Shown here piece after piece: positions 29,590 through 30,561 of a stretch of DNA of 64,000 bases. The first letter of the stretch is position 1. The number at the start of each line of letters is the position of its first letter. The notes under the pieces were generated by a model that saw only the letters and a list, made by a program, of their open reading frames with translations, made no database searches and was not told the origin of the DNA. Position numbers and translations under genes: made by a program. Source of the DNA: Caldifarciminota bacterium (GTDB lineage: Bacteria; Hydrothermota; Hydrothermia; LBFQ01); the NCBI GenBank assembly GCA_027003075.1, contig JALWYV010000055.1, positions 43,200 through 107,199 on the forward strand, in the 5' to 3' direction.

Positions 29590-30045
29590 ATGATACAGTG
29601 GAGCGAAAAGGTAGCGACCGGCGTTCCGAAGATAGACGTTCAACACAGGGTTCTCATCAGGAACTTCAACCTCCTTGAGGAACATATCAACAACAGAACC
29701 CTGAGTTACGATGAACTTAACGAGTTACTGCTCTTTCTTCTCAAGTACGCCGAATGGCACTTCGGTAGGGAGGAGGAGTGTGTGGAAGAGACCGGATGTT
29801 ACATAGCCGAACTTAACAAAAAACAGCACGAGTGGTACATAAAACACTTCACCCAGTTGTACGAGGAGTTTAAGGCTATCAAGGACTGGACCGAGGAGAA
29901 ACTCTACGAGTGGGCCTCAAGGGTCCATAAAGAACTGAGCGAGTGGCTCCTAAAACACGTTATAAGGACGGACAGACATATCGGTGTGTGCATGGGTAAA
30001 TTGAAACCGGAGGAAGTTCCTCCCCCCGAAGAGAATCTGACGTAA
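29590..30045 (+). CDS. bacteriohemerythrin
   Basis: WSEKVATGVPKIDVQHRVLI, HFGREEE, KQHEWYIKHF, WLLKHVIRTDRHIG. Confidence 0.93.
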   Translation: MIQWSEKVATGVPKIDVQHRVLIRNFNLLEEHINNRTLSYDELNELLLFLLKYAEWHFGREEECVEETGCYIAELNKKQHEWYIKHFTQLYEEFKAIKDWTEEKLYEWASRVHKELSEWLLKHVIRTDRHIGVCMGKLKPEEVPPPEENLT

Positions 30046-30046
30046 A

Positions 30047-30119
30047 TGCCCCGGGAGGGACTTGAACCCCCGACCCGCGGATTAAGAATCCGCTGCTCTG
30101 CCTGCTGAGCTACCGGGGC
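30047..30119 (-). tRNA. tRNA-Lys (anticodon CTT)
   Basis: Reverse complement GCCCCGGTAGCTCAGC...GCGGA-TTCTTAA-TCCGC...GGGGG-TTCAAGT-CCCTC-CCGGGGC-A. Confidence 0.96.
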
Positions 30120-30120
30120 A

Positions 30121-30550
30121 ACTACGGGTGGCCATAAGCCGGGTTCTGTACTCGGTGGTCATCTATCTGGCCCCACCGGTTACCCGATGAGGTCCGTCGC
30201 GGCCTACCCGGCGCTCAGGGGGTGCGGGCCACACCCCGGACCCGGAAGGGTCCTTCGCGCCTTATTTGGCCTTGCTCCGGGGGGCGGTCACCAGAGCCAG
30301 CCTTACGGCCAGCCGGGGGCCTTTCACCCCCTCACCCCGCATTGCTGCGGAGCCGGTGGGCTCTTACCCCACCCTTTCACCCTTGCCTCCATGACCCTTC
30401 CCCTTTCGGGGAAGGCGGATCGGCGGTCTTGTTTCTGTGGCCCTGCCGTGTGGGGAAAACCCCCACCCCGGGCGTTACCCGGCACCCTGCCCTCTGGAGC
30501 CCGGACTTTCCTCCCCCGCCGAAGCGGAGGCGACCACCGGCCACCCGTGG
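30121..30550 (-). ncRNA. rnpB: RNase P RNA (bacterial)
   Basis: Reverse strand GGAGGAAAGTCCGGGCTCC near the 5' end and ACAGAACCCGGCTTAT at the 3' end; P1 ACGGGTGGCC/GGCCACCCGT pairs perfectly. Confidence 0.95.
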
Positions 30551-30555
30551 AAACA

Positions 30556-30561
30556 ATTATA
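30556..30561 (-). promoter_or_regulatory. -10 box (TATAAT) of rnpB
   Basis: TATAAT-TGTTTC directly before the 5' end of P1. Confidence 0.8.

Follow-up and report, generated by a model that had tools for sequence, protein, structure and literature searches.

In the window, the 64,000-nucleotide stretch of contig JALWYV010000055.1 analysed here, the RNase P RNA gene (rnpB) is followed after only four nucleotides by a tRNA-Lys(CTT) gene on the same strand. The two genes probably give one transcript that would be cut at tRNA +1 by RNase P, most likely in trans. The junction is a bacterial variant of the tRNA-punctuated stable-RNA transcript; it is real, well formed and mildly novel. Its elements are as follows.

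30556-30561, minus strand: TATAAT, the -10-like box of rnpB by sequence, 7 nt (30555-30549) before the first P1 nucleotide
30120-30548, minus strand: rnpB, class A RNase P RNA by its RF00010 match, 4-nt 3' tail included
30539-30548, minus strand: 5' strand of P1, ACGGGUGGCC (ACGGGTGGCC), from the cmscan alignment and the MFE fold
30124-30133, minus strand: 3' strand of P1, GGCCACCCGU (GGCCACCCGT), from the cmscan alignment and the MFE fold
30120-30123, minus strand: linker AGTT, predicted to serve as single-stranded 3' tail to the P RNA and as 5' leader to the tRNA, with U at -1
30047-30119, minus strand: tRNA-Lys(CTT), from RF00005, ARAGORN and paralogues; discriminator A73, CCA not encoded
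30007-30029, minus strand: terminator-like hairpin of 10 pairs, 6 of them G-C, followed by a T-rich tail, where the rnpB-tRNA transcript is predicted to end

Both RNAs are intact. The cmscan match to RF00010 (30548-30120, minus strand) scores 189.1 bits against a gathering score of 100, with an E-value of 1.4e-59, and is complete, covering model positions 1-367. By this full-length match, the rnpB of the window is identified as a bacterial class A RNase P RNA. It is the only RF00010 match in the source genome bin (2.11 Mb in 62 contigs, 93% complete), which also encodes RnpA (PF00825, 59.6 bits, in a 134-aa open frame); a genome search found no PIN_5 (HARP) protein there. The tRNA matches RF00005 at 30119-30047 on the minus strand with 69.5 bits. 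The ARAGORN call, tRNA-Lys(CTT) at 30046-30120, is one base wider at each end, and since its tRNA start is one base early, the automatic P1 caller makes the linker in the window 1 nt too short. An earlier note had described rnpB as adjoining tRNA-Lys(CTT) across AGTT with no terminator between them, and cmscan, ARAGORN and a scan for terminator-like sites confirm this arrangement. The MFE fold preserves P1 and is elsewhere only a rough model of the P RNA. P1 has changed in sequence yet kept its pairing in a congener (G001) and in a sister genus (G006).

The linker AGTT is followed directly by G1 of the tRNA and is the same in a second species (G002, below). The last four positions of the Rfam class A model are AGUU, unpaired, so that the predicted RNase P cut at the tRNA coincides with the end of the family model. 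This coincidence supports the proposal in the earlier note that a cut at the tRNA 5' end would also yield the 3' end of the P RNA. The 3' end of the E. coli P RNA, ACCU, likewise lies 4 nt past P1.

The TATAAT box places the predicted transcript start at or beside P1. Its context, CCGCTTTATAAT, matches tRNA promoters of the genus (e.g. L086), and a -10-like box is also present 5' of rnpB in G001, G003, G004, G005, G006 and G007, the aligned family members that reach far enough upstream. A promoter scan found no consensus -35 for rnpB. According to the earlier note, an independent tRNA-Lys promoter with termination inside the 4-nt gap would speak against a joint transcript; consensus scans between rnpB and the tRNA found neither a sigma-70-like promoter nor a terminator-like site, and the 32 nt upstream of tRNA-Lys contain no -10-like hexamer. 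Elsewhere in the source genome, 29 of 34 sampled tRNA genes have a TATAAT-like box, most ending 8-14 nt before the tRNA, which implies leaders of only a few nucleotides. The five genes that lack a box are Val(TAC) behind Ala, Ile(GAT) behind Phe, Thr(GGT) behind Pro, Arg(CCT) behind tmRNA, and Trp(CCA); four of them thus sit directly behind another tRNA or tmRNA. With short tandem spacers, for example the TAC that separates Ala from Val, the RNase P of this organism must already be cutting a few nucleotides past a structured RNA. The rnpB-linked tRNA-Lys, itself without a box, fits this class of downstream cistrons.

The tRNA genes of the source genome (L099-L129) are mostly single units, often with a TTCCGC-like stretch directly upstream. 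At five loci of the same genus (L070, L071, L074, L075 and L087), tmRNA, with the tag peptide ANASYALAA, is followed after a few nucleotides by tRNA-Arg(CCT).

Terminator-like hairpins occur only downstream of the tRNA, the best at 30029-30007, where it is largely preserved in G002; two such sites were found against 1.0 expected in shuffled sequence, which makes the hairpin weak evidence by itself. It falls within the final codons of a hemerythrin-domain gene (29590-30045) that is read towards the tRNA and ends with its stop codon one base away from the last tRNA base; the two convergent transcripts would therefore overlap. Read in order, the signals are those of a dicistronic unit: a promoter before rnpB, none before the tRNA, no intervening terminator, and a terminator-like hairpin after the tRNA. 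Because rnpB has a box and the tRNA has none while most other tRNAs do, co-transcription is the simplest reading, and we infer the single rnpB-tRNA transcript that the earlier note had predicted.

The cloverleaf of the rnpB-linked tRNA scores above cut-off, with intact stems and the anticodon CTT. Its acceptor pair 7:66 is G-C, as against C-G in the stand-alone paralogues, a compensatory swap that argues for retained tRNA function; together with the intact stems it rules out a pseudo-tRNA. Judged by its stems and paralogues, the gene is an additional, functional tRNA-Lys(CTT). The genome contains at least one other tRNA-Lys(CTT) with its own TATAAT, as well as a tRNA-Lys(TTT). One stand-alone copy (G000:C5:37047-37119) has flanks very similar to those around the only stand-alone copy of G002. 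Another (G000:C29:507-579) may be a true third copy or may reflect bin contamination, estimated at 3.9%. The C5 and C29 loci have similar DNA downstream, yet just 78% identity. The stand-alone copies exclude the rnpB-linked gene as the sole source of tRNA-Lys(CTT). Supply is therefore not tied solely to rnpB, and the statement in the earlier note that tRNA-Lys output would be tied to rnpB transcription was too strong.

An identical junction is found in a second species of the same genus (G002, WFXS01000095.1, candidate division WOR-3 bacterium), with 93% identity over 3.1 kb, which rules out an assembly or binning artefact. Synteny in relatives, to which the earlier note had pointed, holds for G002 and fails in G001, G003, G004 and G005, in which a T-run follows P1 directly or within 4 nt and no tRNA is present. 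The junction thus occurs in two of the six genus genomes, which excludes genus-wide conservation. In these congeners (L056, L031, L029 and L057), a T-run so close to P1 suggests that the rnpB terminator stem is either P1 or a local pairing of GGGUAGGCC with GGCCACCC. Given the T-run in these four congeners, RNase P is not the genus-wide means of ending the P RNA. The most economical history, whose direction we infer from this distribution, would be an ancestral rnpB T-run in the genus that was lost once a tRNA had landed behind the gene. In a sister genus, a tRNA-Leu(CAA) begins 3 nt after P1 in one genome (G006), and no tRNA lies behind rnpB in another (G007). As tRNA-Leu(CAA) differs from tRNA-Lys(CTT), the G006 junction is an independent event. 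A pattern scan of the phylum detected rnpB-tRNA in 3 of 147 genomes.

In the mechanism that we propose, transcription would start from the TATAAT box at the 5' edge of P1, cover rnpB, the AGTT linker and the tRNA in one pass, and stop at the hairpin just downstream. RNase P, composed of the RNA and the RnpA protein, would then cut at tRNA +1, giving the 5' end of tRNA-Lys as the downstream product and a P RNA ending 4 nt past P1 as the upstream product. Such a cut in an intact tRNA precursor is routine RNase P chemistry. A second RNase P molecule, acting in trans, would most likely make the cut, which would replace the end-making role that the T-run after P1 appears to play in the sister species. 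The AGTT leader provides a U at -1, and in the complex of E. coli RNase P with pre-tRNA this residue is in contact with A248 (PMC11221534). RNase P protein contacts leader residues -4 to -8 (PMC12710915), and since these start inside P1 here, cleavage may be slow; E. coli P RNA does cleave substrates whose N-4 to N-8 equivalents are helical (PMC12710915). Alternatively, the 3' end of the P RNA could be formed by exonucleases or by a different endonuclease.

Scanning about 85,000 species with an exact pattern, whose sensitivity is incomplete, returned 24 rnpB-tRNA loci, and ARAGORN confirmed a tRNA behind rnpB at 23 of them, the exception being L049. Some are loose, with the tRNA 18-22 nt from P1 (Gemmatimonadales L038, Chloroflexia L043), and at L051 and a few A+T-rich loci the automatic caller does not place P1 reliably. 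Two groups are clustered, Cardiobacteriaceae with tRNA-Arg(CCT) and Blattabacterium with tRNA-Ser(GGA); the rest are scattered over Clostridia and further phyla. In five strains of Blattabacterium cuenoti (L041, L045, L048, L051 and L053), tRNA-Ser(GGA) follows rnpB within a few to ~15 nt. The order of Cardiobacterium has the pattern in 10 of 32 genomes, and Cardiobacteriaceae loci of this kind comprise L050, L042, L032, L034, L035, L039 and L136-L145. Their spacers, counted from the P1 end (GGC...CTC), are either 4-6 nt (ACCT, AACT, AACCC, ATCTGC) or ~13-16 nt and often T-rich. The tightest junctions, 3-4 nt after P1, represent three independent cases: the genus of the window (G000 and G002), G006, and Cardiobacteriaceae. 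A tRNA-Arg(CCT) pattern, run on six Cardiobacteriaceae genomes, matches nothing but the rnpB-linked gene.

The earlier note had allowed self-maturation of the ribozyme in cis or in trans; trans cleavage stands as the default, and the cis part lacks support. A natural cis-acting ribozyme, in which the nascent P RNA would fold, dock its own 3'-attached tRNA and cleave itself, is very unlikely, despite the very short linker and a tRNA that, with its U at -1, is a genuine substrate. A 4-nt tether beyond the 10-bp P1 is presumably difficult on steric grounds and would require partial opening of P1. Crystal structures put the P4 active site tens of angstroms away from the distal end of such a 10-bp helix. 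The linker beyond P1 ranges from 3 to ~16 nt when independent cases and the members of Cardiobacteriaceae are compared; there is thus no sign in other lineages of a constrained tether, a feature expected of a cis conjugate although not strictly required. Engineered P RNA-pre-tRNA conjugates do cleave in cis, according to two sources (PMC13022451, PMC11221534), but the constructs described in PMC13022451 are circularly permuted, and their two parts meet in the L15 region through extra single-stranded segments rather than 4 nt past P1. Varying natural linker lengths and published conjugates joined elsewhere leave cis cleavage unsupported. Still more doubtful is a scenario in which 3'-end maturation of the P RNA occurs in cis while it is being transcribed, and in which the tRNA linkage was selected as a feedback that has new P RNA finished by RNase P activity. 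We consider least probable that the tRNA is transcribed from its own promoter in the 3' part of rnpB, with rnpB ended earlier by a Rho-dependent or unrecognised mechanism. The scans used consensus signals only, and the promoters of this phylum are not characterised, which leaves some room for such a start; the stretch of 32 nt upstream of the tRNA, however, is devoid of the hexamer found at 29 of the 34 sampled tRNAs, and its sequence is constrained by P1 and the conserved ACAGAACCCGGCUUA element.

A separate question, compatible with the co-transcript mechanism, is whether the linkage was ever selected. We judge it an evenly balanced matter whether this is a neutral chance juxtaposition, in which a redundant tRNA copy came to lie behind rnpB. 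With 47 tRNAs in 2.11 Mb, the chance that a tRNA on the same strand begins no more than 10 nt from rnpB is, for one genome, ~1e-4 under uniform placement and, by our own estimate, up to ~1e-3 when only intergenic DNA is open to tRNAs. For about 85,000 species some 10 to 80 cases are expected by chance. The 24 loci observed are of the same order, as random tRNA placement would give, and show no sign of worldwide selection for adjacency; a worldwide enrichment is accordingly not supported. The junction is surprising in one genome and not across about 85,000. Neutrality also agrees with the status of the tRNA as an extra Lys(CTT) copy and with the four of six genus genomes that lack the junction. 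Against it speak the intact tRNA, with its compensatory acceptor pair, and the retention of the arrangement in two species; in addition, two independent events in one WOR-3 family of 8 genomes exceed expectation, although these were counted post hoc. Even with the adjacency unselected, the P RNA 3' end must come from processing once the T-run has been lost, which leaves the consequence for the mechanism intact. The rnpB-tRNA junction is a tolerated, recurrent arrangement with precedents rather than a new system.

Among known systems, the yeast mitochondrial unit comprising tRNA-fMet, RPM1 (the RNase P RNA) and tRNA-Pro (PMC3797045) shares the placement of an RNase P RNA in one transcription unit with tRNA genes. 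It differs in being mitochondrial, in that mature RPM1 is in fragments (PMC3797045), and in having no 4-nt junction past a class A P1. The engineered conjugates of Frank, Harris and Pace (1994) and of Pulukkunat and Gopalan resemble the window in the covalent joining of ribozyme and substrate, with cleavage in vitro; as portrayed in PMC13022451, they are artificial and permuted, with linkers near the active site, whereas the tRNA of the window is on the natural 3' end, where cleavage in trans suffices. Bacterial tandem tRNA and tmRNA-tRNA transcripts, represented in this genome and genus by Ala-Val, Phe-Ile, Pro-Thr and tmRNA-Arg, are alike in that an RNase P cut at the downstream tRNA +1 frees the upstream RNA, but the upstream RNA in the window is the catalytic RNA of RNase P itself. 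The Cardiobacteriaceae junctions also place a tRNA 4-6 nt after P1 in several species; the tRNA and the phylum are different, and some species have the longer, often T-rich spacer. In the literature searched, which is incomplete and does not establish priority, no paper on bacterial rnpB-tRNA co-transcription was found.

Provided that the joint transcript exists, one end of the catalytic RNA is made by RNase P itself, which amounts to a closed loop; the precedents in the literature searched are the organellar co-transcript and the engineered conjugates only. Cardiobacterium hominis, C. valvarum and Rappaport israeli are cultured relatives of the second case and make the loop testable. In Cardiobacteriaceae an essential ribozyme and the sole tRNA-Arg(CCT) detected may both come from one transcript. 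The junction also suggests how a processing site can replace a terminator in evolution.

A different fate of RNase P is probable in a sister family of the same order (f2; G008-G011, two genera, 86-96% complete). These four genomes contain no RF00010 match above noise (best 9.3 bits) and no detectable RnpA, and all four encode a PIN_5 (PF08745) protein with E-values of 4e-37 to 4e-45. The HARP-type PF08745 loci are L150 (1483-2049, minus strand), L151 (1492-2079, plus strand), L152 and L153. The L150 protein (188 aa) matches solved RNA-free RNase P enzymes with E-values down to 4.9e-37 and scores above the TIGR03875 cut-off. In the genomes searched from the family of the window (G000, G001 and G006), rnpB is present and PIN_5 was not found. 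RNA-based RNase P has been wholly replaced by HARP in Aquificaceae (PMC10941002), and f2 probably represents a second such wholesale replacement, outside Aquificaceae. A genome from another family of the class (G013; L149, L011) encodes both an RF00010 RNA and a PIN_5/HARP-type protein (211 bits).
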